Below are positions 8,320-23,784 of a stretch of DNA of 64,000 nucleotides, one piece after another. The notes beneath the pieces are model-generated. The model was not told where the DNA came from and made no database searches. It saw only the letters and a list, made by a program, of their open reading frames with translations. The stretch is from Kordiimonas lipolytica (GTDB lineage Bacteria > Pseudomonadota > Alphaproteobacteria > Sphingomonadales > Kordiimonadaceae): positions 9,640 through 73,639 of the forward strand of contig NZ_LRUB01000023.1 of assembly GCF_001550065.1 (NCBI RefSeq), read 5' to 3'. The position numbers were made by a program, and so were the translations under genes. The stretch's first letter is position 1. Each line of letters begins with the position of its first letter.

Positions 8320-10065
8320 CTAAACAGTCAGGTCTAGGCTGGTCAGGTCGGTGAGGGTGAGGTCCTCTATGAAAACACTGTTCCCACCACCAAGATCGAT
8401 CAATACGCCTGCGGTGCCATCCACACTGGTCAGCGAGGCTGCGGCCTGCACGTCGGCAAGGCTGGTAAAGTCCACGGCCGCAAAGCGCAGATCGAGGGTA
8501 TCGTCCGTCACCGAGAAGTCGGTGATGGTATCGTCACCGCTCAGCGCGCCGAAGACGAAGTTGTCGGCCCCCGCTCCGCCCGTGAGCGTGTCATTGCCCG
8601 CCCCGCCCCACAGGGTATCATTCCCGCTGCCCCCATCGATGGCATCATTGCCTAAGCCGTTGAAAATCAGGTCATTACCGCCAGACCCGATGAGTATATC
8701 GGCATCTTCTCCGCCATATAGGGTATCATCACCTGCCCCGCCGTTGAGCGTATCATCACCTGTACCACCACCGACTTTGTCACCACCCCCATCGCCACTG
8801 GCGCTATCGTTGCCCGCTCCAGCCCAAACTTCATCATTGCCGCTACCACCCGACAAGGTATCCTCGCCATCGGCTCCGCTAAGGGTATCCCTGCCAGCCT
8901 CTCCCGAGATCATGTCATCACCGGCGCCACCGGCAATAGTATCGTCGGCATCATTACCCGACAGCGTGTCGTTACCGTTGCTGCCGGCCAGGTTGACAGG
9001 CTTGGGGTCTGAAGGAATGATGGGTTCGGCGACATCTGTCACATTGATTGTGAGAGTATAGCTGCTGGAGGATACACCGCCTTCATTATCCCGGACAGTA
9101 AAGTGAAAACTAGAGCGAGCGTTACCATTCGCATCGGCTTGTGGGATATAAACCAGATAGCCATCAGACAGATCCGACGGGAAAATGTTGTAGTTGTCGG
9201 TAACATCAACATCATTTTCCCCGGACTCTCGGTAAACCAGTTTGTCGCCAGAGGCTAAGCTGATGTTGCTGAGCGTAATCCGGTTGAGAGTTGCACCGGC
9301 ATCTGCGTCAGCAAATGTGAAGTCCGCCTCTTTAAATACATATTCTTGGTCTTCTGTCGCCGTAACGGCGGTGTTTTCGCTGGTGGGTAAGCTGTTCGGA
9401 ATGACGATATCAATATCGAAAAAGCCAAAAGCAATATCTGCTCCGCCACCTAGACCACTATTACCGCCATCATTGGCGCTTACGGTGATACGGGCAGCAT
9501 CTGTGCCACTGACACCTGCGGGTCCTGTATAAAGGAACCAATCGCCATCTGCTGTTGCATCAAAATATTTATCGATGTCCGCAATCGTTCCTGCAATCGT
9601 GACGGTATCAGTGCCGGACCCTCCAACCGTAACGCTGTAATCAGCAGCACTGTCCATGGTTGCGGTAATCGTGCCGATAGAGGCAACAAAGGTGAATGTA
9701 ACTGTAGCAGAACCGGAATCTGGATCGTTTACCCGCATGTTCGAGAAATCTATCCTGGAGGCTTCGGCCATATTCGCTGACGCGGTGAATGGCAGATCCC
9801 CGGCATTGTTCGGTGGGTCGTTGACAGATGTTACCTCGATTGTGCGTGTATCAACACTTGAAGCGCCCGCACTATCGGTTGCTGTCACGGTGATTGTACG
9901 CGGATCAGTGCCTGGATTGTAGGAGGCCGGAGAATACCGCATGCTTTGCAGTGTTTCCTGCACAATTGCGTTCGTAGCCTGGTCGTTGAATGTCAGCGTA
10001 AAAGCATCGCCGCCATTTGTCCCAAAGCTATTAACAGAAGCCACAACCACGCTGTTTGCTGACAA
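8320..10065 (-). CDS. 5'-truncated RTX-type calcium-binding adhesin/exoprotein
   Basis: The frame is open from a stop at 10159 to 8320 with no ATG or GTG near its beginning; the first usable start is TTG at 10065, inside a domain. The N-terminal half holds cadherin/Ig-like repeats ('TITVTATDSAGASSVDTRTIEV', 'FHFTVRDNEGGVSSSSYTLTINVTD'). The second half (about residues 355-520) is a run of GGxGxDxLx nonapeptide RTX repeats that bind Ca2+, followed by an acidic C-terminus typical of type I secretion substrates. Such proteins are usually thousands of residues long with N-terminal repeats, so this is very likely a 3' remnant cut at about 10159. No secretion genes are nearby, and recombinase fragments sit directly upstream. 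Confidence 0.7.
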   Translation of the reverse strand: MSANSVVVASVNSFGTNGGDAFTLTFNDQATNAIVQETLQSMRYSPASYNPGTDPRTITVTATDSAGASSVDTRTIEVTSVNDPPNNAGDLPFTASANMAEASRIDFSNMRVNDPDSGSATVTFTFVASIGTITATMDSAADYSVTVGGSGTDTVTIAGTIADIDKYFDATADGDWFLYTGPAGVSGTDAARITVSANDGGNSGLGGGADIAFGFFDIDIVIPNSLPTSENTAVTATEDQEYVFKEADFTFADADAGATLNRITLSNISLASGDKLVYRESGENDVDVTDNYNIFPSDLSDGYLVYIPQADANGNARSSFHFTVRDNEGGVSSSSYTLTINVTDVAEPIIPSDPKPVNLAGSNGNDTLSGNDADDTIAGGAGDDMISGEAGRDTLSGADGEDTLSGGSGNDEVWAGAGNDSASGDGGGDKVGGGTGDDTLNGGAGDDTLYGGEDADILIGSGGNDLIFNGLGNDAIDGGSGNDTLWGGAGNDTLTGGAGADNFVFGALSGDDTITDFSVTDDTLDLRFAAVDFTSLADVQAAASLTSVDGTAGVLIDLGGGNSVFIEDLTLTDLTSLDLTV

Positions 10066-10158
10066 GGTATCGGCATCAAGGTCGAGGGAAATGCCATCAC
10101 CATCACTATCCAGAAAGCTCAGTCTGTCTGTGGATTCCGCATTGCCAGCTTGACTGAC

Positions 10159-10463
10159 CTATTTCACACACCCTGCGACTAACTATACCGTCATGTGCGC
10201 CTTGAAACATTTAATCCGTTCGTGGCGAGAGGCTGCCGTAATTGGCGTCCGGGCGCCGCTTCCGATGTCAGGTCAGAAAGCAGACGATGTAGAATTCAGC
10301 TATTACACAGCGGTCCGAAAAAACGACCGTTATTCCGTACTTGCCTGACTTTGCCTTCTGATGGCGACATTCTTTGTATTTCCGGTTCATTTTTGCGGTT
10401 TTGCAAAGCAAAGTCTGTTATTTTTTCGCTCCATGAGTTTCTCGAACCCAAACGGTCGAAATC
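10159..10463. other. Non-coding junction between the RTX remnant and a resolvase remnant
   Basis: No convincing gene or RNA is visible in these 305 bases. The RTX frame ends at a TAG (10159-10161) and the resolvase remnant starts at 10464. The last 80 bases become AT-rich ('gttttgcaaagcaaagtctg') and could be the old resolution site or promoter of the resolvase, but no clear repeats support this. Confidence 0.4.
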
Positions 10464-10667
10464 ATGTCCATGAAGATTGGGTATGCCCGGGTCAGCACCA
10501 GGGACCAGAACCTCAGCTTGCAGCTTGATGCCCTGGAAAAGGCAGGCTGAGCCAAAATCTTCCGAGAGGTTATCAGCGGGGCCAAAGCAGATCGGCCGGC
10601 ACTCGATGATATGCTAAAGCATCTCCGCACAGGTGCCTGCAGCTGTGCGCTTTCAGGCCAGGCATAG
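10464..10667 (+). pseudogene. Serine resolvase/invertase N-terminal remnant with in-frame stop
   Basis: The frame starting at ATG 10464 reads 'MSMKIGYARVSTRDQNLSL' with the catalytic Ser of serine recombinases in the ARVS motif. It hits a TGA after 28 codons and continues in the same frame with clear family sequence ('AKIFREVISGAKADRPALDDM'). Similarity then ends abruptly at 'LKHLRTG', where the family should read on into the 'DRLARS' region. So it is both interrupted and truncated. It is not a copy of the intact resolvase just downstream, because the sequences differ clearly. It marks an older recombination event at the RTX breakpoint. Confidence 0.8.
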
Positions 10668-10988
10668 CAACGACTGCTGGCAATTCGACATCAGCACATC
10701 CGATCTCAAGAAGATCGATAAACCCGCCTGGATTGATCCAGCGGTGTGCCAATGTGAGCGTCAATGAGCAAACTTGATTGCAGATAATGTGAGCCCGGTT
10801 ACCCGGATAGTTGCAATCAATCTGATCTGAGCTCAAAAGTGTCGATGATTGCGATCACAGGCATGTATGATTGCGAGCTTCTATAGGTAGACCTTCAGAG
10901 ACATCGCCGCTTATGACGGCTTTCTTTACCCATTGCCGCCCGGCGCCGACGACTCCTTTGTCGTTTTCTTTTCTGAAAGGGGGCCAGA
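10668..10988. other. Non-coding stretch between two resolvase genes
   Basis: I see no gene in these 321 bases; the short open frames have no ribosome-binding site and no recognisable protein character. A weak hairpin (CGAC and GTCG around AAAGGA, near 10948-10961) lies just beyond the 3' end of the intact resolvase and might be its transcript end. Confidence 0.35.
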
Positions 10989-11543
10989 CTACCTGGCCGC
11001 CTTCAGCGCCCGATAGATAGTTGCCTCTCCCAGGCTAAACTCCTTGGCCAATTGACCAATAGTCGCGCCTGCAAGCCGTCTTGAGTAAATTTCCTGTTTT
11101 TTGGTATCCGTCAATTTTGGAGGCCTGCCAAACTTGACGCCATTTTCTTTGGCCTTGGCGATCCCTTCGGCCTGTCGCTCTGTGCGAAGGTCGTTTTCAA
11201 ACTCGGCAATCGACGCCAGCATATTGAACATCAGCCGACCGGTGGAGGTGCTTGTATCGATATTCTGGTCCAGGACCAATAGGTCGATACCTTCTTGTTC
11301 AAAACGTTTGGCGAGCTGCGCTAGATGGACAACCGACCGTGCCAGCCGGTCGAGCCGTGTGATGATCAAGGTATCGCCGTCACGAAGATAATTCATGCAC
11401 GCCTTGAACTCAAGTCGGTCAGCCGTTCGACCACTGCGCTTTTCCCGATAAATCCGGTCACATGCTGCCTCATTCAATTTTTCCAGTTGAACTTCCAGAC
11501 TTTGACCAATTGAGCTGACTCTGGCATAGCCAATTCGTGACAT
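10989..11543 (-). CDS. Serine recombinase (Tn3/Gin resolvase-invertase family)
   Basis: An intact 184-residue serine recombinase. The N-terminal catalytic domain has 'RIGYARVSSIGQS' with the nucleophilic Ser at residue 10 next to R8, and further active-site Arg residues in 'LIITRLDRLARS'. It ends with a long E-helix and a C-terminal helix-turn-helix ('GATIGQLAKEFSLGEATIYRAL'). The length is usual for Tn3-type resolvases and Hin/Gin invertases. The AT-rich 176 bases upstream contain inverted repeats that could be its res or gix site. No transposase of the Tn3 family is near, so it may belong to a plasmid-like or decayed element together with the neighbouring toxin-antitoxin pair. Confidence 0.9.
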   Translation of the reverse strand: MSRIGYARVSSIGQSLEVQLEKLNEAACDRIYREKRSGRTADRLEFKACMNYLRDGDTLIITRLDRLARSVVHLAQLAKRFEQEGIDLLVLDQNIDTSTSTGRLMFNMLASIAEFENDLRTERQAEGIAKAKENGVKFGRPPKLTDTKKQEIYSRRLAGATIGQLAKEFSLGEATIYRALKAAR

Positions 11544-11719
11544 AATCTATCATATTCCTTTTAAGGTTTTGACTGTGTATTTATGATAGTAGTTTTGATA
11601 GCAATTTTCCAGGACTATCATATAGTATACTTTTCGATACAATAAAATTTTGACATATTTCATGCGTTTCGATTATATTGAACAAATCAGATGAATCGAA
11701 CGATATTTAGGATCGCATC
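11544..11719. promoter_or_regulatory. AT-rich divergent promoter region with inverted repeats (candidate res site/TA operator)
   Basis: This strongly AT-rich segment separates the resolvase from the divergent toxin-antitoxin operon. It contains TATGATAGT (about 11581) facing ACTATCATA (about 11613), plus CTATCAT close to the resolvase start. Repeated CTATCA-type half-sites of both orientations fit a resolvase recombination site. The part nearest the antitoxin (GTTTCGAT and ATCGAACG) could be the antitoxin's operator. Both roles are inference. Confidence 0.45.
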
Positions 11720-11980
11720 ATGGACGCCCTTACTGCCAATGAAGCCAAAACGCAATTTGGCGACATGCTTTTAAAAGCTCAGCGTGCACCTGTGCAAATC
11801 AGCAAGAATGGCAAGCCCGTGGCCGTTGTCATCTCTATGGACGAGTATGAGGGCATAGAGGCCCTCAAACTTCGCCTGCTGCAATCCAGGGCAGCTCAGG
11901 CCAAATTGGACATAGAAGCAAGCAACACTGCTGACGGCGAGACTTTTTTTGATGACGTCGAAGCAGGCAAGTTTGATTGA
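11720..11980 (+). CDS. Type II antitoxin, Phd/YefM family
   Basis: An 86-residue protein beginning 'MDALTANEAKTQFGDMLLKAQ', followed by 'PVQISKNGKPVAVVISMDEYE', the hallmark of Phd/YefM antitoxins. The N-terminal part binds operator DNA and the acidic C-terminus (ending 'DDVEAGKFD') neutralises the toxin. Its TGA stop overlaps the ATG of the downstream ParE-like toxin by one base (TGATG), so the two are coupled. As is usual for the family, the complex probably represses the AT-rich promoter just upstream. Confidence 0.92.
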   Translation: MDALTANEAKTQFGDMLLKAQRAPVQISKNGKPVAVVISMDEYEGIEALKLRLLQSRAAQAKLDIEASNTADGETFFDDVEAGKFD

Positions 11981-12288
11981 TGCTTGCATATCATTTAACG
12001 CCGGAGGCGCAGAAGGACATTCTGGAAATTCGCCGTTACACCACTGAGCAGTGGGGAAAGCCTCAATCTCAAAAATATCTGTCGGAACTGCGGCAGACCA
12101 TCCGCTTGCTGGCTGAGAATCCCAATTTAGGCAAACAACGCTCTGATGTCAGTTCAGGCGTGTCGAGCTTTCCACATGCGAGCCATGTCATTTACTATAT
12201 CGTGCACAGACAGCAATTGATTGTCTTTGGTGTGCTGCACAAACGCATGGTACCGGACCAACATCTAGCCGACAGGCCAATAATCTAA
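11980..12288 (+). CDS. Type II toxin, RelE/ParE family
   Basis: A 102-residue toxin with the ParE pattern: 'YHLTPEAQKDILEIRRYTTEQWG' at the N-terminus, 'IRLLAENPNLGKQRSDV' in the middle and the strand/turn 'SHVIYYIVHRQQLIVFGVLHKRM' near the end. ParE proteins inhibit DNA gyrase and RelE relatives cleave mRNA; the lack of the catalytic RelE residues cannot be judged here, but the length and N-terminal helices fit ParE. The ATG at 11980 overlaps the antitoxin stop. The pair probably helps keep the surrounding mobile region in the genome. Confidence 0.9.
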   Translation: MLAYHLTPEAQKDILEIRRYTTEQWGKPQSQKYLSELRQTIRLLAENPNLGKQRSDVSSGVSSFPHASHVIYYIVHRQQLIVFGVLHKRMVPDQHLADRPII

Positions 12289-12348
12289 ATCATCTATGTT
12301 CTTGTTTTGTCCAGGTTAGCGTACAAATTGGCACTGTTCTTGTCGTGA

Positions 12349-12750
12349 CCCCTAGATGGCCGCGGCAACCTGAGCGAAGAGTCGCTCGCGGAGTTTGCCA
12401 AGTTCTTTCTGAAGGCCTGCATTGATCAGGTTAGCTTCATGGAGGAGCTGGTTCGGCCAGACCGGTTGCGGGATCGTATGTTGATTTGGGTGGAAGAAGA
12501 AATCCGTGGAGACCGCCTGCCGACCAAATCCGGAAGTGTCATGGAGGCTGTTCTGTTTCGGGGTGACCTACCACGCGGTGATGTCGCCCCACTCTTGAAC
12601 GCCAGTGAACGTACTGCGCGGCGCATTACGTCGGCCCTGCTTGATCGTGGGGTACTCACAAGTGCAAGCACCCGGGCGCCACTGCGGCTTACATTCCCAG
12701 CTACATTGGCAGGCAGATGGATGCCAGGCCTTTTCCCGGACAAAACATGA
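12349..12750 (+). pseudogene. C-terminal remnant of a Fic-family protein
   Basis: From just after a TGA at 12346 the frame reads 'PLDGRGNLSEESLAEF', 'FFLKACIDQVSFMEEL' and then a winged-helix-like region with 'RGDVAPLLNASERTARRI' before 'LDRGVLTSAS'. This is the typical end of two-domain Fic AMP-transferases. The catalytic HPFxxGNGR motif and everything before it are missing, so no AMPylation activity is possible. An ATG at 12439 could express only the C-terminal DNA-binding-like domain. It lies between the toxin-antitoxin pair and the giant recombinase gene, which ends 15 bases away, so it may have been cut when that element arrived. Confidence 0.75.
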
Positions 12751-12764
12751 TATAGGCGGCGGTG

Positions 12765-15700
12765 CTACGCGGCGTCAGCCGTCTCGACCAGGGCAGTTAA
12801 ATCATCAATGTCGCAATAGGCAATTGCAGCCAGATAGGCCACGATCTTGGGAAGACTGGAATAGCGATCCCCGATTGGATTGACTAGATGCATAAATGCG
12901 ATTCCATCGGGAAACTGGGGTTTGATGATGGCGTCCTTCACATTGAAACGGTATGCAGCTTGTCTGGGAATAGTCTTTCTCCACGTTGATTCCGTCGTCT
13001 CACGGTCTATTCCGTCCGGAATGCCAATGATGAACTGCCACCGGCTCTTTGGGATCATGGGTGCAAAGAAATCGACAATATCACTAATCTGCTCAGGTTG
13101 GTGCAGTCGGTAAGAGCGTGCACTGGGTGATGAAGCTCTCAACACCATGAGGGTAAACTCTGCGATCTCTTGCCCCGTCATGGAACGGAGATAATCCGGA
13201 ATGGTTTCGAGCACATTTGCTAATTCCAGTCGCACGGACTTGTCGTTTGGGGCCTTCACCGTGAGAATAGAGCTGTCATTGTGGGGCTGCAGCCGTTTAT
13301 TTCCGCGGCGGGTAGTGAGCTGCTGCAATACGCGGGCCTTCTGAATCCACTCTTCTACCTGTCTACGTTCGATCCCGAACTGATCTGCCACGTCGCGGCT
13401 TCTGGACCCTTCCTCGACGAGGCGCAAAATTGTGTTTGTCAGAGCAAGGTCGGGATCTGCGCTTTCAAATGGCAATCCATCATCTGACCCTAGAGAAAAG
13501 GGCGGATTGGTTAGTGGCTTGTATTGATGCTCTATGACACTGGCGATTGGCTGAGTGGCCAGATATTCGTGCCGTTCTTGGGCCCCGAGACCAGACAATC
13601 TCTTGCCCTGTACCCCAGCGATTTGGGCCAATTTATCAGTGCTGACGACCAATGACTGTCTTTGTAGCTTTTGGAAGAGGATAAGGTCAGTTAGGTGGAG
13701 GTAGCTTGTCATGGTCTCACGCGGATCAGCATGGCCGGCGAAAGCCGCCAAGGTATAATAAAGGCCCATGCGGTTAGACGCATGTCCCATCAAGTGCGTA
13801 CGGATATTTCTGAGTTGTTCGATGGAAAGCCCGGTGAAACCTTGGGAGGCTTCATACACCTCTTCAAGCGTTGCATGGAGGCAGGAAAAACAACTGTGTC
13901 GCAGATTGTGAAACACGATGTCATCTTCATTGGTCAATGCCTTCATGGCCATCGAGAACATTTTGGAGATTGCGCTGGGTTTATAGGGAATGCCAGTATC
14001 GTTCTTGTCGAAAAGTGGCTTAAGAAGATGCTTTTTGGATGCCGTTTTGTGGTTCATCAGAAGACGAAACTCTTTGAGCTCATCGTCATCGAGAAATGAG
14101 CTTAGATGTATTCGTCTGTGTCCTGCTTTTGATTTGTTATCACCATATGGGTTATTCTTGATGGTAACGACGAAGTCGTCTGATTTCTCAACTTCGCAGA
14201 CCCGTAATTTTGCCAATTCGCCCAGACGCATCCCGGTCCGGAAGGCAAGCGTGACGTAAAGGGCAATCTTGCGCCTCTCTAACATGTTCGGCTCGTTCTC
14301 GAGCATAACGTCAATCGCTTTGCGCACCTGCTCTATGGATAGAATTCTGGTTCTTACGCGCGTATGTCGTTGGCGATTGTGCCATGGCAAGGTCTCTAGT
14401 TCGGGCAATCGATAGCGGCGATCCTTCATGGCGAAGCTATGGAAATCTGCCAGCCGCCCCATCAGATAGTCAGTCTCCCCTTGGGTCGTGTGGAAGGTCT
14501 GCATATTGGTGTATAGTTCTTGAAGGTATACTTCGTCCTGCAGGTCCGGCACTTCCCCGTTGGTTTCATAGATGAGGGGTAGGACAAGGTTTGAACAATA
14601 GCGCTGGAGTGTGGCCGGGCTATTGTCTTTTCTCAAAGCAACCTCGATCAGCCAGTCAATAGCAAGGCGCAAGTGCACCGGCAGATTGTCCCGGTCTCGA
14701 AGGAATTTCAGGTTGGCTACGGCTTGGCCAGTGGTGATCTTGCCGTTTTCAAATGAAGGTGGTGTGATGGCGGGCAACAATTCCCGGTCATAAAATGTCC
14801 CCCATTCGTTGGGGTCCTTTTTCAAAATATTACCTCGAGCGGCGCGTTCATCGCGGGGAAGCCGCGCAGACACCTGATTTACTTCGTTGAGTGGGCTAAA
14901 CAAGGATCTCCATGCCTTTGGGCTAACGGAAAAGGTCCTGAAATGGTTTGAAGCGAGTGACTGGAGGGCTTCACTGATTTCAATACCCTGACGGCTTTCC
15001 AAAGACCAGAACCCTGCGGCAGTAAGTTGATCAAGCTTAGTGATAGAAGTTTTATTGGGTATTCCAGCGAAAACAGCTTTCTGGATGAGTACAAAAACGG
15101 CCTTGGTTTGTAAGCCTACTTTCAGGGTTTTTTGTTCAGGTGCCTCTTTCTTCCTTCTACAGAGGCGCCTTATAAGCGCTAGGCTGATTACATCCGGGAA
15201 CCAGTGCCTGTGTCGATAGCATCTCTCGTCTTCGAGCTTCATGCTGTAGCGGCTACGCCGGCCGGCCGCTTCGGCGCGCAGCTCGAGCCAGGCATATGGG
15301 CCCATTCGCTGAAGCGTGGGTTCTGGTTTTGAAAGGGTGCCTGCCAGTTTCTTCACCATCTCAAGGTCTGTCAAACCACCATGTACAATTGCAGAATAGA
15401 GGATCAGGCCAATCAGTGTTTTTTCGTCTTCATTGGACGAACGAGTGATCGAGTTTAGCCTGTCTTTAAACAGTCGTTCCCATACATGAATGTAACGAGC
15501 GCTCGAAAACCATTGTTCGTTTCGAAAAGAACCCTCAAAGGTCAATCTTGTTGGCACTTGAGGCAAACTCACATGCAGCTTGTTTGTCCGGACGATCTTT
15601 TGTGCCGTCCGTAACAGTTTCCCTTTGATATAAACAAGTGCTTCTGCCGTTAAGTTTAGGCTCTCAATCTTGGCTTCAATATCCTTGAGTGCGTGTTCAT

Positions 15701-18080
15701 ATTGCTCGGCTGAAGTAATGTTGGCGCTGTTAAAATTGAGGTCAATTTCAAGCTGGTCATATTTTCGGATCGCGATTTGTCGGGACGTTTCCCTGTTCTT
15801 TGCCCTTTTACGTCGCCCGATTGCTCCTTCTTGCTTCTTTGGGGGATGATAGGCCCCAATGCGATTGGGGTGTGGAGAGGCGCCAATCGGAATAATGCCT
15901 CTTTCATCCAGCATCGATTGTACCTGATGGCCTATGGTCTTGAGGTTAGCAAAGTTATATCCACTCGTGCAGCTCATGGGGCCAACGCCAAGCAAGGCGT
16001 GGCCCATGAAAGCATTGATGCTTTCGTCCCAGGCGTTTCCGGTAAGGGTGCTACGCAACTGGTGGCGCTGCCAATTCTGAGGCAGCGGACTGATAAATCT
16101 GTCTTTGTGCTTCAGGACCTGTGGGGAAAGCGATTGAGGACCAGTATTTGTGAACAGAAAAAAAAGTGGCTGGCGGCTGGCAAGGACGTCTCCTATGAAA
16201 TGGGCCAGTGCGATGTTGCTGGGCATTAGCTTCTTTTGGAGGTTCTTCAGATGATTGAGATAACGAAGCATTTGCTCAAGTGCAGTTTCGCAAAGTGGGA
16301 CGACCCGGGACGAGTGGTTAGTGCGAACCACTTTGTCACAGATCCAGACGAAGCCAGCTTCCAAGTCAAAGTCGCGGAGGTATTCAAACGGTTCTGTGAC
16401 CGGGCGATGCCCTGTTGCTAAGCAGAGCAACATGTAGGTATACAGCGTTAGCAGATTGTGGTGATTGAATACGTCTGCTGGCTTGTTCGCATCCAGTTTT
16501 TGGATCTCAGCGCGCATTTCCTGAAAATGACTGAAGATGCGCTTGGAGTGGGGCACTAAAAGGCTGCCCTGCACGCCATCGACTGGGGCACCCGATTCAG
16601 TCTCAAATCCGAGTGATTCCACATAGTCGTTAAAGCAGGAAATCACGGTATATGGTGACACCTGAGCGTAAAACAGAGCGGGCGTTTCATCGGCGCCCGT
16701 CCCGCAAATATGTCCCTGTATGACACTATCAACACCCGCGTGCCGAAGTGATAGCGAGAGTTGGGCGGCAATTTTGGAAAGTGTAACTTGACGGTGCTTT
16801 AGGCTCGAAAACCCACGCAGGGTTTGGCCTTCATTCTCGGGCAAATGCCAAGCATCTTCTCCGGTGCCAGAAAGATACTCATCTAGGTAGCCTTCAAGCT
16901 CCCGCGGCACAGGCAAAAGACACCCCAGGGATTCTTTATGGGCAAATAGCTCGTTGGTGACATTGTCCTCTATATGATCGGGAAGGTGTTCGCGTGGGAT
17001 TTGAATCTTGTCATAGAGGTACCATTTTTCCTCAATCTTCACCCAACACACTTCTTTGGGTTTTCGGTTCGGGCCAATAGGCCGGTGTTTTAAGCCTTTG
17101 ATCAGCCGAACCGGTCTCCCAAACACTAGGGACAGCAGTATAAAAAGGCTGTTTTTCCAGCTAGACGTACCTATTTTCCCTGGGTTCTTAAGCTGTTTGA
17201 GGCATTCTGACTTGATCGTCGCGACAATGTATGGGCTGAGGGATTTTGGATGGGTGGCGGACAATAGTTGCCCCATAACGAGGCTCTGATTAATCCGCTT
17301 GTTAACTTTGTGCTGTAGATTTGAGCATCTGGCATCCGGTTGAGACGCTCGCGTGCGGGTGTGTTCGACATATGTTGTTGAGGATGTGAAATAGCTGTTT
17401 TCACGTGCTGGCGTATGACTGTTGGCACTGTCGTCATTGTATCTCGTCTGCAACACGCGTGGCGGTCTATTTGATATATCGCTTGAGCTACTGAAGGCCA
17501 GTGAAATGGTCGAGGATAGACTGTCTTTGCTATGGGCCCGTTTTCCTTTTTTCCGCGCACATGCATATTGCAGCAGTCTCCGCCAGGGAGTGATCACGTT
17601 ATTGATTAGAGACTTTGGTTTAGAATTGTCTGTCTCCAGTTGTTCGAGGTGGGCCAGGAACTGTTTCAGGTCATTCGTGGTATCGGCAAAGAGATCGAGG
17701 ATGCCCCGGTTGTTTTTCCTGGCGGACCTAAGTGCAGCACCTGCGCTTCCAATCGATGTTGGTACCGTACCGTGCCGATCAAACCAATCGGCTGCGAGCA
17801 GACTTGCTGCCACGATGTTGATATAAAGCTTTTCTAATCTAGCTTTGTGTGTGGGATCGGAGGGGGGACTTGTATTGATGAGCCCCAACAACGGAAGCTC
17901 GCCCAAAACTATTCGCGCGGACATTTTCTCTGATTGGGGGAAGCGCTCTGGGGCCTGACGATAAGCCTCAAGTTCGTTGGCCCAACGTATGCATTCTTGC
18001 TGAACGTTGGGCTGGTTATCGAACGCATCGTGGACTTGTTGAAGCCGCCGTTTCAGGTTCGGGATGGCGTGGAGTGGCAC
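12765..18080 (-). CDS. Giant protein with two tyrosine-recombinase (phage integrase) modules
   Basis: One uninterrupted frame of 1771 codons. Module 2 (about residues 1240-1470) is a canonical tyrosine recombinase: R1285 in 'RTGMRLGEL', K1318, H1391-NL-R1394, H1450 in 'AGHADPRETM' and nucleophile Y1460. There is an unusual insert of about 55 residues between the HxxR and the GH motif. Module 1 (about residues 540-715) keeps R559 in 'ATGHRP', H673-QL-R676, G693-H694 and Y708. At the usual Lys position it has R586/T587, and its H-to-Y spacing is 14 rather than 10. A helix-turn-helix-like stretch follows near 1555-1590. The start is taken as GTG at 18080 because the frame is closed upstream; the SD is weak. 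Typical integrases are 300-450 residues, so a fused double integrase is exceptional. It is likely co-transcribed with the 170-residue gene 23 bp upstream. Confidence 0.8.
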   Translation of the reverse strand: MPLHAIPNLKRRLQQVHDAFDNQPNVQQECIRWANELEAYRQAPERFPQSEKMSARIVLGELPLLGLINTSPPSDPTHKARLEKLYINIVAASLLAADWFDRHGTVPTSIGSAGAALRSARKNNRGILDLFADTTNDLKQFLAHLEQLETDNSKPKSLINNVITPWRRLLQYACARKKGKRAHSKDSLSSTISLAFSSSSDISNRPPRVLQTRYNDDSANSHTPARENSYFTSSTTYVEHTRTRASQPDARCSNLQHKVNKRINQSLVMGQLLSATHPKSLSPYIVATIKSECLKQLKNPGKIGTSSWKNSLFILLSLVFGRPVRLIKGLKHRPIGPNRKPKEVCWVKIEEKWYLYDKIQIPREHLPDHIEDNVTNELFAHKESLGCLLPVPRELEGYLDEYLSGTGEDAWHLPENEGQTLRGFSSLKHRQVTLSKIAAQLSLSLRHAGVDSVIQGHICGTGADETPALFYAQVSPYTVISCFNDYVESLGFETESGAPVDGVQGSLLVPHSKRIFSHFQEMRAEIQKLDANKPADVFNHHNLLTLYTYMLLCLATGHRPVTEPFEYLRDFDLEAGFVWICDKVVRTNHSSRVVPLCETALEQMLRYLNHLKNLQKKLMPSNIALAHFIGDVLASRQPLFFLFTNTGPQSLSPQVLKHKDRFISPLPQNWQRHQLRSTLTGNAWDESINAFMGHALLGVGPMSCTSGYNFANLKTIGHQVQSMLDERGIIPIGASPHPNRIGAYHPPKKQEGAIGRRKRAKNRETSRQIAIRKYDQLEIDLNFNSANITSAEQYEHALKDIEAKIESLNLTAEALVYIKGKLLRTAQKIVRTNKLHVSLPQVPTRLTFEGSFRNEQWFSSARYIHVWERLFKDRLNSITRSSNEDEKTLIGLILYSAIVHGGLTDLEMVKKLAGTLSKPEPTLQRMGPYAWLELRAEAAGRRSRYSMKLEDERCYRHRHWFPDVISLALIRRLCRRKKEAPEQKTLKVGLQTKAVFVLIQKAVFAGIPNKTSITKLDQLTAAGFWSLESRQGIEISEALQSLASNHFRTFSVSPKAWRSLFSPLNEVNQVSARLPRDERAARGNILKKDPNEWGTFYDRELLPAITPPSFENGKITTGQAVANLKFLRDRDNLPVHLRLAIDWLIEVALRKDNSPATLQRYCSNLVLPLIYETNGEVPDLQDEVYLQELYTNMQTFHTTQGETDYLMGRLADFHSFAMKDRRYRLPELETLPWHNRQRHTRVRTRILSIEQVRKAIDVMLENEPNMLERRKIALYVTLAFRTGMRLGELAKLRVCEVEKSDDFVVTIKNNPYGDNKSKAGHRRIHLSSFLDDDELKEFRLLMNHKTASKKHLLKPLFDKNDTGIPYKPSAISKMFSMAMKALTNEDDIVFHNLRHSCFSCLHATLEEVYEASQGFTGLSIEQLRNIRTHLMGHASNRMGLYYTLAAFAGHADPRETMTSYLHLTDLILFQKLQRQSLVVSTDKLAQIAGVQGKRLSGLGAQERHEYLATQPIASVIEHQYKPLTNPPFSLGSDDGLPFESADPDLALTNTILRLVEEGSRSRDVADQFGIERRQVEEWIQKARVLQQLTTRRGNKRLQPHNDSSILTVKAPNDKSVRLELANVLETIPDYLRSMTGQEIAEFTLMVLRASSPSARSYRLHQPEQISDIVDFFAPMIPKSRWQFIIGIPDGIDRETTESTWRKTIPRQAAYRFNVKDAIIKPQFPDGIAFMHLVNPIGDRYSSLPKIVAYLAAIAYCDIDDLTALVETADAA

Positions 18081-18103
18081 CCCATCAATGTGTTGATCGA
18101 ATA

Positions 18104-18616
18104 TTATCCCTCTCCCTTACTCAAACTATTTCCAAAAGCGTCCGGTTCTGGAAGGACTTTGGGCGAGGGTGGCTGGCCTTGATACAATGCCTTAATGTCT
18201 GTGATAGAAGCTTTGTGAAAAGTGGATAGGCACAATAGCTCGCTACCGGCGATTGTGCGAATGCGATCCGGCGAAATACCAGGATAGTTGGCAATTGGAA
18301 CTTTTAGTTTGTCCTTTAGGCCTACGGGGAGGGCTTCTAATTCTCGTAGGATAGCGACAGCGGCAAACCCGCCAAAATATTCGAAGACCGTAGGTTTCGA
18401 TGGAGACCGAAGTTTGCCGACTGAAATGCAGATTCTCTGCTCAAGCATGTGCGCTTGCAGTCGCGCAATATCCTTGACTATCCATGAGGGTACCTTGGGC
18501 TCGAACGGAATGTGTCCGAGGTGGTTTTGGATTTCAGGATGGAGGGTGAACCTAAAATTTTTGGCCAGCCGTAAGGAGAGTCTGGGTTTATTTGGACGGG
18601 ACAGAACCGACTTCAT
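18104..18616 (-). CDS. Hypothetical protein encoded upstream of the double recombinase
   Basis: A 170-residue basic protein that I do not recognise. The middle part 'VFEYFGGFAAVAILREL' faintly resembles the G-x-x-R-x-x-A box of ParB-like proteins but lacks the conserved Arg, so this is not a call. No signal peptide or membrane segment is visible. It ends 23 bases before the start of the 1771-codon recombinase gene, on the same strand and with a GGAGAGGGA sequence at its 3' end, so the two are very probably one operon. By analogy with Tn554-type elements, where a small protein accompanies the tyrosine recombinases, it may be an accessory factor for recombination. That is inference. Confidence 0.6.
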   Translation of the reverse strand: MKSVLSRPNKPRLSLRLAKNFRFTLHPEIQNHLGHIPFEPKVPSWIVKDIARLQAHMLEQRICISVGKLRSPSKPTVFEYFGGFAAVAILRELEALPVGLKDKLKVPIANYPGISPDRIRTIAGSELLCLSTFHKASITDIKALYQGQPPSPKVLPEPDAFGNSLSKGEG

Positions 18617-18886
18617 AACGTAAGCACCGATACTCTGACAGCGAATTCAAAAAATGTTGAACTGAGAGCTTAACCAGCGTCGCCAAGAATGGTCAAAAAT
18701 TCATATAAATTTTAATAAAAATGCGCCCTTCAGCGGACTTGCCGAAGCTATCCGCCATAGGATGCATAGATACCCCGATTTTCTTTCCAATCTACGCTAG
18801 TAGTGCCGCCTCTTCGAAGTTGGATTTTCCGTTGGCTCGATGTTCGTGGACAGAAAATTTTTCTCTGGATCCTGCTTCTTGTCAAC

Positions 18887-18921
18887 GCCGGAGTAAAATT
18901 CCCTCAGCCGCCGGAGTAAAA
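18887..18921. repeat. Direct 12-bp repeats, likely IS21-family terminal repeats
   Basis: GCCGGAGTAAAA is present at 18887-18898 and again at 18910-18921 with a 23-bp period. They lie about 150 bp beyond the istB stop codon, where IS21-family elements carry multiple short transposase-binding repeats. The assignment rests on position and repeat form only. Confidence 0.45.
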
Positions 18922-18994
18922 ATACATCACGCTGGCTTTGGTTGTCGTCGCGGTGCTGACCCGGGATCCAGCTTGAGCAAGAACTGTTGATGAA

Positions 18995-19034
18995 GAAGGC
19001 AAGAAGGGGCCCAATTGGGCCCCTTCTTGCCTTC
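18995..19034. repeat. Perfect 40-bp palindrome downstream of istB
   Basis: GAAGGCAAGAAGGGGCCCAA is followed at once by its exact complement, giving a 20-bp arm with no spacer. It lies 31 bp past the istB stop. As RNA it would fold into a very stable hairpin and could end transcription from either side; as DNA it could extrude as a cruciform. Confidence 0.85.
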
Positions 19035-19064
19035 GGCGTTACTATTCCCGCTTCGCAAGCAACG

Positions 19065-19709
19065 TCAGCCTACAGGTTTTGATCGGCTCTGTTTGAGGCG
19101 GTAGCTTTCGCCGTTCATCTCGAGGATGTGGACATGATGGGTCAGCCGATCGAGCAGCGCGCCGGTGAGGCGTTCGGAGCCGAAAGTGCTGGTCCATTCA
19201 TCGAACGGCAGATTTGATGTCACGATGGTGCTGCCGCGCTCATAGCGCCCGGAGAAGACCTCGAACAGCAGTTCGGCGCCGGTTGGGGACAAGGGAACAT
19301 AGCCCAACTCGTCGATGATCAGCAGTCTGTATTTGGCGAGTTGTTTCTGCAGGCGCAAGAGGCGTTTGTCGTCGCGGGCTTCCAGCAGTTCATGGACGAG
19401 CGCTGAGGCTGTAATGAAGCCAACCGCCAGGCCCTTTTGACAAGCCGCCAATCCAAGGCCGGGGGCGATGTGGGTTTTGCCGGTACCACTGTTGCCAACG
19501 GCGATAATGTTCTCGTTGCGGGTGATATAATCGCAGCGAGCCAATTCCATGATGAGCAGCTTGTTGAGCGATGGCATGGCCTTGAACTCATAGCTGTCGA
19601 GGCTTTTTGTAGTGGGAAAGCGGGCTTGTTTGATCCGCCGCTCCACCATGCGGCGTTCGCGGTCAATCAATTCTGAACTGATGGGGTGGATGCCCCTTTC
19701 GAGCGACAT
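19065..19709 (-). pseudogene. istB: IstB-like ATPase of an IS21-family element, N-terminally truncated
   Basis: The 214-codon frame has the IstB/DnaC AAA+ core: Walker A 'GNSGTGKTH' (about residues 72-80), Walker B 'RLLIIDELGYVPLS' and sensor motif 'STIVTSNLPFDEW'. IstB helpers are normally about 250 residues. The conserved first 40 or so are missing, and the first dozen codons here ('MSLERGIHPI') come from the adjoining IS1111 element, whose left inverted repeat lies at 19686-19696. No istA transposase gene is present. The element is therefore dead: its 5' part and istA were lost when the IS1111-type element became joined here. Confidence 0.82.
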
Positions 19710-19758
19710 TGTATGATGTCACAACGCCGCTGCGGCGGCATCATCGAAGGAGAGCATC

Positions 19759-20772
19759 ATGACGAACATTTACATTTTGGCAATCGATCTGGCGAAACGG
19801 AGCTTTCAGGTCTGCGCAACTGATCGGGATGGGGCGGTTCTATATAACCGCATGATCTCGCGAACAAAGCTGGAGAAGCTTCTGGAAGCGCAAACATCTT
19901 GCATCGTGGCCATGGAAGCCTGTGCCACCAGCCACCACTGGGGGAGAGTTGCTGAAGGGTTTGGGCATGAGGTCCGCCTGATTCCGCCGATCTATGTGAA
20001 ACCCTTCGTCAAGCGGCAGAAGAATGATGCGGCTGATGCTTCCGCGATTGCTGAAGCAGCGAAGCGCCCGAACATACACTGGGTGGCCGTTAAAAGTGCC
20101 GAGCATCAGGCACGAGCTGTGGCATTTCGTACCCATCAATGTCTTGTGGGGCAGCGCACGCAGCTGATCAATGCATTACGTGGCCACCTTGCCGAGTTCG
20201 GAGTTGTCGTTGCTCAGGGTCGCGCCAATATCAAAACCATCACCAGTATGCTGAAGGATCAAGCGATAGATCTTCCTGCGGGAGTAGAAGACATTGTGCG
20301 CCTCTATCTGGATCAGGTCGAACTGCTCAGCACCAGAATCGATGAATTGACTTGTAGGCTTCGAGAGGCTGTGAAGGTTAATGACGATATGCGACGGCTT
20401 TGTACAGTACCAGGTGTTGGTCCGGTGACGGCGGGCGCGATCATGGCCTTCGCGCCTGATCTGCATAGCTTCTCCAGCGGAAGGAACTTCGCTGCCAGGC
20501 TGGGGCTTGTACCGAGACAACGGTCTACTGGAGGCAAGACGCGTCTTGGCGGGGTCAGCAAGATGGGGCAGAGTGACGTTCGGAGGCTGCTGATCGTCGG
20601 TGCGATGAGCCGCATCAGGTGGATCGTGCGCAAAGGCGAATTGCCTGACAATTGGCTTGGTCGCATTCTGGGACGAAAGCCTCGTATGGTTGCGGCTGTA
20701 GCATTGGCCAACAAAATGGCGCGAAACATATGGGCAATGATGACAAGGAATGAGGATTATCGTTTGGCGTGA
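19759..20772 (+). CDS. IS110-family (IS1111 subgroup) transposase
   Basis: A full-length 337-residue DEDD transposase. The N-terminal RuvC-like domain shows D10 in 'LAIDLAKRSFQV', a Glu in 'IVAMEACATSHHW' and two Asp in 'QKNDAADASAIAEA'. The C-terminal Transposase_20 domain has the helix-hairpin-helix 'VPGVGPVTAGAI' and the catalytic Ser region 'RQRSTGGKTRLGGVSKMG'. Such enzymes move the element with a guide RNA made from its own non-coding end. GGAGAG lies just upstream of the ATG. All expected motifs are present and no stop interrupts the frame, so it may be active. A GC-rich hairpin (CGCCGC/GCGGCG) sits between the left repeat and the start. Confidence 0.93.
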   Translation: MTNIYILAIDLAKRSFQVCATDRDGAVLYNRMISRTKLEKLLEAQTSCIVAMEACATSHHWGRVAEGFGHEVRLIPPIYVKPFVKRQKNDAADASAIAEAAKRPNIHWVAVKSAEHQARAVAFRTHQCLVGQRTQLINALRGHLAEFGVVVAQGRANIKTITSMLKDQAIDLPAGVEDIVRLYLDQVELLSTRIDELTCRLREAVKVNDDMRRLCTVPGVGPVTAGAIMAFAPDLHSFSSGRNFAARLGLVPRQRSTGGKTRLGGVSKMGQSDVRRLLIVGAMSRIRWIVRKGELPDNWLGRILGRKPRMVAAVALANKMARNIWAMMTRNEDYRLA

Positions 20773-21046
20773 TCCGCTGCTACCAATTGACAGCAAGACG
20801 GAAAGCGCTCAGGGCCCGGCCCTGACAAGGAGATCGACTGACCAATATGCGGCAAGGAGTTCAATGTTCAGGACGAGGTAAACCAGTCCCGGGGCTCGAG
20901 CGTCAAAGCTCTTTGAACCGATGTGGACCTTCGTTCTTCGAACTGCATACCGGCCCCGTGGCACCTTCAGGCCACGATCGGAGGCCTGACACACGACCGA
21001 TAGAAGCGCCAAGTCGAAAAAGTCAGAAAATCACCTTGCAAAACAG
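20773..21046 (+). ncRNA. Candidate bridge/seeker RNA in the right end of the IS1111-type element
   Basis: The 274 bases between the transposase stop and the right inverted repeat contain no gene but several strong local hairpins: TCAGGGC/GCCCTGA around CCG (near 20810), a TTCG-TTCTTCGAA fold (near 20930) and CGTGGC/GCCACG around ACCTTCAG (near 20957). In IS110-family elements the non-coding end next to the transposase encodes the guide RNA; for the IS1111 subgroup it is the downstream end. Exact RNA boundaries and guide loops cannot be set by eye. Confidence 0.5.
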
Positions 21047-21108
21047 GGGGCATCCACACACGCCCCGGGATTGCCGGAGGCTCCAACTTCTGAGTAAAAG
21101 GAGCCATT

Positions 21109-21537
21109 ATGAGCAAGACCACGAACAAATTTTCACCTGAAGTCCGCGACCGTGCGGTCCGCATGGTATTTTCCCATGAGGGCGATTATCCGTCCCGTTG
21201 GGCAGCGATTGTATCCATCTCCAGCAAGATTGGCTGTGTCCCTCAGACCCTGAACGAATGGGTCAAGAAAGCAGAGGTGGACAGCGGCCAGCGGGCTGGT
21301 ATGCCGACCGAGGTTGCCGACAAGCTGAAGGCCCTTGAACGGGAGAACCGGGAACTGAGGCAGGCCAACGAGATCTTGCGCAAGGCAATATGTACGGGCC
21401 GCAAATCGTGGATCAGAGACATCGGGTTGTATCAAAAGCAATCATGGCACTCATTCGCTCTGACATACCGAGATCTCGGCGACATACAAGTAGACGAAGA
21501 ACCTGAGGGCTGCCCAGCGTATTCTGGGTCATTCTAA
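21109..21537 (+). pseudogene. IS3-family orfA remnant
   Basis: The frame begins with a typical IS3-group OrfA: '[27 protein letters not shown]', then '[15 protein letters not shown]' (helix-turn-helix) and the leucine-zipper part '[21 protein letters not shown]'. Similarity stops at about 21392. The remaining 48 codons do not look like OrfA, and no orfB with a DDE domain follows, so the element is broken. A good SD (AAGGAG) precedes the ATG. The sequence is different from the complete IS3 element at 58.4-59.9 kb. The 180 bases after it, up to the next gene, show no recognisable function. Confidence 0.8.
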
Positions 21538-21720
21538 GATGGTCAGCCCGGATCGATAACGGGGCATTGATGTGGATGTTGCCTTGGAGGTTGCTGGAAG
21601 CAGATTTAACCTTAAACGCGCTGGCCAAGTTATATCTATGTCAGTCGACAATAGACACGCTGGTCTGCTATATATTGCCGACTATTGCACAATAACTGTA
21701 CCTAATGGGAGGACTGTTTC

Positions 21721-22371
21721 ATGGAGCACCATTTTCACACTTTTCTGCACATCACACTGTTTGGTGTTTGGCTGGGTTCGATTGTTGCTCTATTGGTTTT
21801 GCTGTTGTGTCGGTATCGAGAGATGCTTTCCGAGCCTGAAGGTCAACTGCACCTTCAAAATCTTGCCTATGTACAACGTCTTCCAAAGGCAGCGCTTATC
21901 CTGATGTTGCCCATGGGGTTACAATTATCGAATAACCTCGCACTGATCACGCTTGGTGATGGCTCTATGGTCGGCATTTGGGTTTTTGCGCTTCTTTGGT
22001 TGGTGATTGACTGGGTCGGAGCACCAAGTGGGGCCTCAGTGGCCTCCAAAGCCATGCGGGTCGTAGAGCGTGTATTGCAAGCTGGTTTTGTGCTTGTTCT
22101 TTTGGGGGCTGGCATTCTGTCCCACTTGTCGGGAGCGCCTGTCGAGGCACCCTGGCTGGCAACCAAGCTGATACTTTTTGCGGTAGCACTCGTTATCATG
22201 AGCGGTGTCGATGCCCTGCTTGTTCCACTATATCAAGCCGAAGAAAGCAAGGGTGGAAGCAATGGTCCTAGTCGAAAACAGTCAATTCTGATGGCGGCAG
22301 GGTTGCTTGCTTTGCTGGTTGCCTTATTGCTCACAGCTGCTTGGACAGGCTACACCAACTGGCGCGGCTAA
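21721..22371 (+). CDS. Integral membrane protein of unknown function
   Basis: A 216-residue protein with about six hydrophobic segments (near residues 8-28, 55-75, 80-100, 120-140, 148-168 and 190-210). A His-rich N-terminus 'MEHHFHTFLHITLFGVWLG' resembles membrane proteins of the CopD/DUF2269 type, which may bind haem or copper through such His residues. Function unknown. GGGAGG lies 8 bases upstream of the ATG. It stands alone between the mobile-element debris and the alcohol dehydrogenase operon, reads in the same direction as that operon and is separated from it by 336 bases that contain an FNR-type box. Confidence 0.6.
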   Translation: MEHHFHTFLHITLFGVWLGSIVALLVLLLCRYREMLSEPEGQLHLQNLAYVQRLPKAALILMLPMGLQLSNNLALITLGDGSMVGIWVFALLWLVIDWVGAPSGASVASKAMRVVERVLQAGFVLVLLGAGILSHLSGAPVEAPWLATKLILFAVALVIMSGVDALLVPLYQAEESKGGSNGPSRKQSILMAAGLLALLVALLLTAAWTGYTNWRG

Positions 22372-22550
22372 GAACTGGGCTATCAGTTCTGAAAGTTGGC
22401 TTGAAACTCCAGCCAGTGACTTCTTCGGATAGGGGTGGCTGGGGTGCAATGCTTGTTCGTCTAAGGGGCTGTCGGGGAAGTGCCCGCTCTGATTGGCAAC
22501 CTAATGTGTGAATGCAGTCGGTAGTTGCTCCCTTACCAGAGAAGCCTTGT

Positions 22551-22564
22551 TTGATTATGATCAA
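22551..22564. promoter_or_regulatory. FNR/FixK-type box upstream of the adh-usp-ATPase-antiporter operon
   Basis: TTGATTATGATCAA is a perfect consensus site in the 336-base gap between the membrane-protein gene and adh. It is centred 150 bp upstream of the adh start, the longest leader of the series. The rest of the gap shows only two direct copies of the short motif 'acagtcgct' near 22608 and 22619. Confidence 0.72.
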
Positions 22565-22707
22565 TGTGCATGCGTCCGCATGGCCCTAGTTTACAATTAG
22601 GGATTTACAGTCGCTTTTACAGTCGCTGGTGAATGATTGGACTTCTCTGCTCGTACTGAGTTCACAGTGAATTCTGGTCCTACGTGGCGTCTGGAGGAGG
22701 AACAGCC

Positions 22708-23784
22708 ATGGCTAAAACAATGAAAGCTGCAGTATTTGTCGAACCAAACAGAATTGTACTTGATGAGAAGCCTATACCGGATGTGGGGCCTCTTGACGCT
22801 CTGATCCGCATTACGACGACCACCATCTGTGGCACCGACATCCACATTCTGAAAGGGGAATATCCGGTCGCAAAGGGCCTTACCATCGGTCACGAACCCG
22901 TGGGCATCATTGAAAAGCTTGGCTCGGCCGTGACCGGATATGAAGAAGGTCAGCGGGTAATTGCTGGAGCTATTACCCCAAGCGGGCACAGTGCAGCGTG
23001 CCTTTGCGGCCATCATTCCCAGGATGGAGCGGGAACGAAGCATGGCTTCAAGCCACTCGGCGGATGGCGTTTTGGCAATACCATTGATGGTGCCCAGGCA
23101 GAGTATTTGCTGGTTCCGGATGCAATGACAAACCTTGCTTTAATACCGGACGGACTGACGGATGAGCAAGTGCTTATGTGCCCGGATATCATGTCAACCG
23201 GCTTTTCCGGTGTGGAATCCGGCCAGGTGCGCATAGGTGATACCGTGGCGATATTTGCGCAAGGTCCCATCGGGCTCTGTGCAACCGCAGGCGCGCGCCT
23301 GATGGGAGCCACCATGATCATCGGCGTTGACGCGATACCTGAGCGCATGACTATCGCCCGCAGGATGGGAGCTGACTATGTTGTCGACTATACCAAGGTC
23401 AATCCGGTGGACGAAATCATGCGACTGACGGATGGACGGGGCGTGGACGTTGCGGTAGAGGCGCTTGGTCGTCAGGAAACCTTCGAAGTGGCTCTCCGTG
23501 TGTTGCGGCCAGGGGGAACCTTGTCTTCGTTGGGTGTGTATTCCGGCGATCTGAAAATTCCCCTAGATGCGTTTCAGGCTGGTCTCGGTGACCATCGGAT
23601 TATCACTACGCTGTGTCCTGGCGGCAAGGAGCGCATGCGCCGTTTGATGGAAGTCATTGATTCCGAACGCGTGGATACCAGCCCACTGGTAACACATCGC
23701 TTTGCGCTTGAGGACATTGAGGAGGCCTATGAACTGTTTGCGAACCAGCGAGATGGTGTCCTCAAGGTCGCGCTGACACCATAG
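22708..23784 (+). CDS. Zinc-type alcohol dehydrogenase (isopropanol/threonine dehydrogenase-like)
   Basis: A 358-residue medium-chain dehydrogenase/reductase. The catalytic zinc ligands are the Cys in 'TTICGTDIHIL' and His-Glu in 'IGHEPVG'; the NAD(P) fold follows in 'AIFAQGPIGLCATAGARLMG'. The four-Cys structural zinc loop of classical ADHs is absent (only 'ACLCGHHSQDG' there), as in the tetrameric isopropanol-dehydrogenase branch. It would interconvert a secondary alcohol or short aldehyde with NAD(P)H, a way to balance redox under low oxygen. The ATG at 22708 is chosen over a GTG at 22684 because GGAGGAGG lies 7 bases before it. It is the first gene of an operon with a universal stress protein, a P-type ATPase and an antiporter. 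Confidence 0.85.
   Translation: MAKTMKAAVFVEPNRIVLDEKPIPDVGPLDALIRITTTTICGTDIHILKGEYPVAKGLTIGHEPVGIIEKLGSAVTGYEEGQRVIAGAITPSGHSAACLCGHHSQDGAGTKHGFKPLGGWRFGNTIDGAQAEYLLVPDAMTNLALIPDGLTDEQVLMCPDIMSTGFSGVESGQVRIGDTVAIFAQGPIGLCATAGARLMGATMIIGVDAIPERMTIARRMGADYVVDYTKVNPVDEIMRLTDGRGVDVAVEALGRQETFEVALRVLRPGGTLSSLGVYSGDLKIPLDAFQAGLGDHRIITTLCPGGKERMRRLMEVIDSERVDTSPLVTHRFALEDIEEAYELFANQRDGVLKVALTP

Follow-up and report, generated by a model that had tools for sequence, protein, structure and literature searches.

A 64,000-nucleotide (nt) stretch of Kordiimonas lipolytica DNA, hereafter called the window, codes for a 1771-amino acid (aa) protein in which two proteins of the tyrosine recombinase (TR) type, B and C, are joined in a single chain. 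We consider it a genuine fusion belonging to a family of mobile modules that use several recombinases and have received little description, and we present a corrected map of its catalytic residues. Our preferred reading, to which we assign a probability of about 0.7, is that the protein represents the fused B+C recombinase of an A-B-C mobile-element module, in which the complete TR of the C half (C2) cleaves DNA and B is its obligate partner. More generally, there is a good chance that the protein is the recombinase of a little-described mobile module. According to the preferred reading, C2 would cut and rejoin DNA at the ends of the element, B would be required by C2 within the recombination complex, and the fusion would lock B and C at a 1:1 ratio.

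The protein is encoded by a 1771-codon open frame (12765..18080, minus strand), which begins with GTG at 18080 and ends with TAG at 12765; the assignment draws on the open frame, Pfam, BLAST and relatives. All parts of the protein given below lie on this strand. The single frame had already been proposed in the initial annotation and is borne out here, with the strand added; a small upstream frame (18104-18616), described further below, had been overlooked. Pfam detects only one Phage_integrase match in the entire protein (residues 1250-1399, E 2.2e-12), and PHROGs give an integrase match over residues 1139-1464 (E 1.8e-24). No second TR gene was found in the window when all six frames were searched with C2, B2 (the TR fold of the B half) and integrase profiles.

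The two-part origin of the protein is evident from its unfused relatives. In all eight plasmid loci that were read (L001-L005, L007, L008 and L010), B and C are separate neighboring genes located behind a small gene A, with B proteins of 725-790 aa and C proteins of 986-1120 aa. The A/B/C sizes are 197/743/995 aa in Vibrio cyclitrophicus, 141/738/1014 aa in Ketogulonicigenium, 209/790/1120 aa in Aeromonas (unannotated and taken from the frames), 213/725/1019 aa in A. johnsonii, 166/725/986 aa in Dinoroseobacter (shibae) and about 154/780/1066 aa in three Acinetobacter loci. The annotation in the loci read mentions only integrase, recombinase or hypothetical protein. The Aeromonas record (L003, Aeromonas caviae pKAM479_3) is listed as a 'plasmid' in PLSDB, although its length of 4.94 Mb means that it is probably a chromosome or a cointegrate. 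Four of the eight loci have B and C overlapping by 4-19 nt; in three others the genes are separated by 4 nt, and in the remaining one by 26 nt. Since the two genes overlap or nearly touch, their products are probably made together.

The two halves of the window protein share 19-28% identity with the B and C proteins, respectively, of L001-L004 (BLAST E 1e-16 to 1e-42). Alignments with the B proteins extend to residues 694-729, those with the C proteins start at residues 754, 758, 853 and 889, and the C-termini of six further unfused B proteins fall 1-5 residues past column 735. Based on the ends of unfused B and the starts of unfused C alignments, we placed the joint at residues 736-754 (15819..15875). 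A translated search of plasmid records produced 236 records with a match, none of which spans 80% of the query at one place. A search of 5.8 billion proteins, on the other hand, revealed eight relatives of the fused protein (P0002-P0009). Five of them (P0002-P0006) share 40-94% identity with the query over 85-99% of its length and belong to separate 90% clusters; one of these, P0005, is itself a protein of the alphaproteobacterium K. lipolytica. P0007 and P0008 (1790 and 1791 aa, one from Halomonas alkaliantarctica) align over both halves only in the multiple alignment, and P0009 is a fragment that ends within C. Sequences P0001-P0006 are continuous across the joint. Judging from these sequences, it is nearly certain that the 1771-aa protein is a genuine fusion of the neighboring genes B and C.

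In the phylogenetic tree of B, for which L008B and L010B were left out and the fragment P0009 was counted as fused, fused proteins occur in two places. One group comprises the window protein and P0004-P0006, and the other comprises P0007-P0009 beside the unfused P0013-P0015. Well-supported branches require two changes between the fused and the unfused state. However, a single clade of fused proteins is not rejected by the approximately unbiased (AU) test (p 0.063). Other searches added little. Scans of genome and viral collections with the single protein and with the fused-family alignment, both relying on a few exact peptide patterns, matched these patterns 22, 40 and 19 times without yielding a confirmed relative; phage records had no match; and two alignment searches, within about 7990 scored candidates each, contributed six B proteins and no further C. 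No fused pair of this kind was described in the titles and beginnings of abstracts among the literature matches listed, a set that mostly lies outside subscription papers and preprints.

Judged by its sequence, the C half contains a TR with the full R-K-H-R-H-Y set in a TR fold. This part, C2 (residues 1129-1480, 13641..14696), includes both the core-binding and the catalytic domains. Conservation was counted in 14 C rows; these, like the 21 B rows used below, exclude P0002 and P0003 as near-copies but include P0008 and the Acinetobacter rows that are nearly identical to one another. R1285, K1316, R1394, H1450 and Y1460 are present in 14/14 rows and H1391 in 13/14. The set listed in the initial annotation is thus correct in five of its six positions. 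The exception is the lysine, assigned there to K1318, which is Lys in only one of the 14 rows, whereas K1316 is invariant. The helix-turn-helix noted earlier near the C-terminal end is matched, if weakly: HTH_28 scores E 0.007 (below the Pfam cut-off) and phrog_4494 scores E 9e-5 at residues 1549-1596 (13293..13436). In the region preceding C2, residues 850-1061 (C1, 14898..15533) show an order of helices and strands like that of the first fold of B (B1, see below), as seen in the secondary structure of a poor model. Profile tests of C1 as a further TR fold were mixed, leaving it unproven: column shuffles reached its score in 4 of 60 cases with C2, 50 of 60 with integrases, 16 of 60 with B2 and 0 of 60 with B1.

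The B half is less conventional. Its structure model contains two folds of the TR/TopIB type. The second, B2 (residues 505-735, 15876..16568), is a TR catalytic fold that carries R559, K583, N669, R672, H673 and H694 and has no conserved Tyr. The first, B1 (residues 274-492, 16605..17261), is supported by the model as another TR-type fold, less firmly than B2. It has lost most catalytic residues, keeps a basic residue at position 436 (Arg in 11 rows, Lys in 10) and features an invariant tyrosine, Y471 (16668..16670). A weak HMMER match aligns Y471 with the C-terminal Tyr motif of XerD and thereby puts it in, or close to, the position of the nucleophile. Only nine columns of B are invariant in all 21 rows: Y471, G505, R559, D582, K583, N669, R672, G693 and H694. 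Six of these correspond to catalytic-site positions (Arg I, Lys, the first position of box II, Arg II, His III and Tyr), the Tyr being located in the other fold. Box II of B2 reads N669-x-x-R672-H673, with N and R in 21/21 rows and H in 19/21; Asn thus takes the place of the first-position His. The usual Tyr place of B2 (column 702) is variable, being occupied by F in seven rows, Y in five, M in three, L in three, W in two and G in one. A recount of B without three of the near-identical rows gave 18/18 at the positions tested, except for H673 (16/18). No single fold of B therefore holds a complete catalytic set, as B2 has Asn for the box II His and no conserved Tyr. Among four proteins submitted to PADLOC there was one weak match, that of the Vibrio B protein to DrmC (E 0.039).

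These data revise the original description of two TR modules in one chain. C2 does have the full set and the model of the first region does contain a TR fold, B2, but the B2 set is incomplete, and the additional TR-like fold at about 274-492, with its Y471, had been missed. Of the N-terminal residues named originally, R559 and H694 hold in 21/21 rows, while neither H673/R676 as box II (R676 is Arg in 15/21) nor Y708 (Tyr in 3/21) does. The supposed 'R/T at the Lys position' is contradicted by K583, which is Lys in every row.

A conserved pocket in B2 together with a conserved Tyr candidate in B1 makes one active site across two folds the simplest bold reading. In that case, B1 would supply Y471 to the B2 pocket, forming a Flp-like shared active site within one chain, so that each polypeptide would have two active sites. 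We put forward such sharing between B1 and B2 only tentatively. Taken to its full extent, the idea makes B a split-site recombinase, with Y471 in one TR fold and an Arg-Lys-Arg-His pocket in the next. The fused chain would then combine two active sites of different kinds with three or four folds of the TR type, and would provide at least half of a recombination synapse in asymmetric, covalently linked form; we regard this extended version as rather doubtful.

Evidence for mobility of the module comes mainly from Acinetobacter. A 6.5-kb query around the Acinetobacter block matched 220 plasmid records at 247 places, and several among the matches listed begin within a few bases of each other (query 232-236). 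The left edge is common to seven Acinetobacter loci that were compared; it lies at ATAACAGAAAACT, some 160 nt ahead of the first gene. This edge is preceded by six different sequences, the same one being found in L006 and L010. On the right side, the loci share sequence over variable lengths. One sharp left edge with differing neighbors supports a mobile unit whose left end carries the recombinase operon, an arrangement also seen in strand-biased circularizing integrative elements (SEs) and GInts, and the Acinetobacter block may accordingly be viewed as such a unit. Sharp-edged copies include L007:4001, L008:4001, L013 and L014. In the copy from an Acinetobacter pittii plasmid (L006:4138-8536), the B and C frames are short (526 and 937 aa) and look broken, and for this reason the locus was used for block ends only. 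The Acinetobacter C protein spans the whole of phrog_33072 (E 0), implying that one copy has at some time been classified among phage proteins. The module is also present in some Alphaproteobacteria.

An SE encodes IntA, Tfp, IntB and Srap (PMC10214605). For comparison we used SE-6283 from pSEA1, with genes assigned by their order and size in that source (IntA 467, Tfp 773, IntB 731 and Srap 165 aa). The comparison covered the B, B1, B2, C, C1 and C2 profiles with 200 shuffles each. The one clear match is that of C2 to IntA (14.2 bits, E 9e-4, best shuffle 2.1). Scores above the best shuffle and yet not significant were obtained for B1 and whole B against Tfp (7.1 vs 3.5 bits, E 0.19, and 3.4 vs 2.3 bits, E 1.2), for C2 against Tfp (3.5 vs 1.5) and for C against IntA (1.8 vs 1.3). 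None of these profiles scored above shuffles with IntB or Srap. The design is similar in that a recombinase-fold protein lacking the full motif adjoins a large active TR and a small protein is added (PMC10214605); moreover, Tfp at 773 aa has the size of B. The module differs from SEs in that no ordinary-size IntA accompanies the gene in the window (see the six-frame search above), the small gene is first rather than last, and B and C are fused in the window. PMC10214605 also restricts SE synteny blocks to Gammaproteobacteria and GInt blocks to Gamma- and Betaproteobacteria, excluding Alphaproteobacteria, where the present module does occur. Overall, the module follows an SE-like design, a relationship to Tfp is no more than hinted at, and its membership in SEs is not established.

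Other multi-recombinase elements were compared with the module by their descriptions. GInts, or the Tn6571 family (GinA, GinB, GinC, GinD), likewise combine several TR-type genes and a small helper in one operon, and GinC lacks part of the motif (PMC5385486). However, ginABCD consists of three TR-type genes followed by ginD, a gene number and order that differ from those in the eight loci read. Tn554 (TnpA, TnpB, TnpC) resembles the module in having a single long TR together with a small helper (PMC10214605; PMC3414803), but it has a separate normal-size TnpA and no counterpart of Tfp, while no second TR gene was found in the window. RIT elements encode three adjacent TRs, of 315-410 aa in the archetype and all with the Tyr (PMC10214605); here there is one 1771-aa protein, or two proteins of the sizes given above in its relatives. 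The proposed sharing of a site has its parallel in Flp, where Tyr is delivered from one fold to the pocket of another (PMC4381057); in Flp this happens between two monomers, whereas here it would take place between folds of one chain. As for the Gamma-Mobile-Trio (GmtX, GmtY, GmtZ), there was no Gmt model among the NCBIfam matches, a result that presupposes such models in the library.

Several other explanations have to be weighed. As the unfused relatives encode B and C separately, one might suspect a sequencing or assembly error that welded the genes together, a source of error already named in the initial annotation. Third-position G+C is indeed lowest right after the joint (0.45 at residues 751-900 vs 0.51-0.59 elsewhere), but this value is within the range of a single gene and speaks neither for nor against a recent join. 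Because five fused relatives, each in its own 90% cluster and two encoded on contigs longer than 1 Mb, cross the joint unbroken, such an error is very unlikely and can practically be dismissed. The module could also be a housekeeping system for plasmid or chromosome dimer resolution rather than transposition. The abundance of the Acinetobacter block on plasmids is in line with this, as is the same YhfG gene beside many copies among the matches listed. Nevertheless, one sharp end with six different left neighbors in seven loci argues against it, and a multi-gene set with an impaired partner exceeds what, to our knowledge, dimer resolution needs. We consider a housekeeping role improbable.

The remaining alternatives concern B. 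On a plainer reading, its role could be structural only, comparable to that of Tfp in SEs or GinC in GInts, which are described as recombinase-fold proteins without the full motif (PMC10214605). B would then bind core DNA and arrange the complex, C2 would be the sole catalyst, and Y471 and the B2 pocket would have been kept for contacts with DNA phosphates or for folding. The scores of Tfp slightly over the best of 200 shuffles are a hint at most in this direction. The replacement of the box II His by Asn in all 21 rows and the unconserved Tyr place of B2 also fit a structural B. On the other hand, invariant R559, K583, R672 and H694 along with a Tyr in the neighboring fold are more than a scaffold obviously needs. 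Overall, we give a structural B slightly less than even odds. By comparison, the proposal that two ordinary recombinases are fused, the first being active through the originally listed set R559-H673-R676-H694-Y708, is highly improbable. It agrees with B2 being a TR fold and with the conservation of R559 and H694, but the 21-sequence alignment contradicts it, as Y708 and R676 are not conserved and box II is situated a few residues earlier.

The surroundings of the fused gene contain other mobile-element features. Where the module in relatives has its small first gene, the window has a 170-aa frame (18104..18616, minus strand), likened to gene A by position only: against a profile of three A proteins it scored 3.1 bits, with 2 of 500 shuffles scoring higher. 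Tandem repeats, which we take to resemble IS21 ends, are located 270 nt before this frame (18886-18929, minus strand), followed by an N-terminally short IstB frame (19065-19709, minus strand) and, 50 nt beyond it, an IS110-family transposase frame (19759-20772, plus strand). Together, these features identify the upstream neighbors as insertion sequences. Between the tandem repeats and the IstB frame lies a perfect 40-nt palindrome with 20-nt arms and no gap (18995-19034). On the other side, a 103-aa frame without a Pfam match (12439-12750, plus strand), presumably similar to the C-terminus of Fic-type proteins, is convergent with the fused gene and ends 14 nt from its stop. It is flanked by a 16-nt inverted pair (12300-12315 / 12735-12750, 88% complementary) that might be a trace of the end of another element. 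Further away are a Phd/YefM antitoxin and ParE-type toxin pair (11720-12288, plus strand), a serine resolvase gene (10989-11543, minus strand) and a second, broken resolvase-like stretch recognized by eye (about 10464-10700, plus strand). Terminal repeats in the window were limited to short pairs, none backed by relatives, and no Rfam families were found at positions 9000-23000.

SEs, GInts, Tn554 and RIT elements all need several recombinase-type proteins, one of which lacks part of the catalytic set in SEs and GInts, and the role of each is described as unresolved (PMC10214605). A natural fusion provides a fixed 1:1 pair of partners in one chain, making the role of the impaired partner testable by single mutations, in a module that is common on Acinetobacter plasmids (220 records). 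The B family offers a clear test of whether two folds within the same protein can each contribute part of one recombinase active site; if true, such a split site would be an uncommon design for an enzyme of this type.
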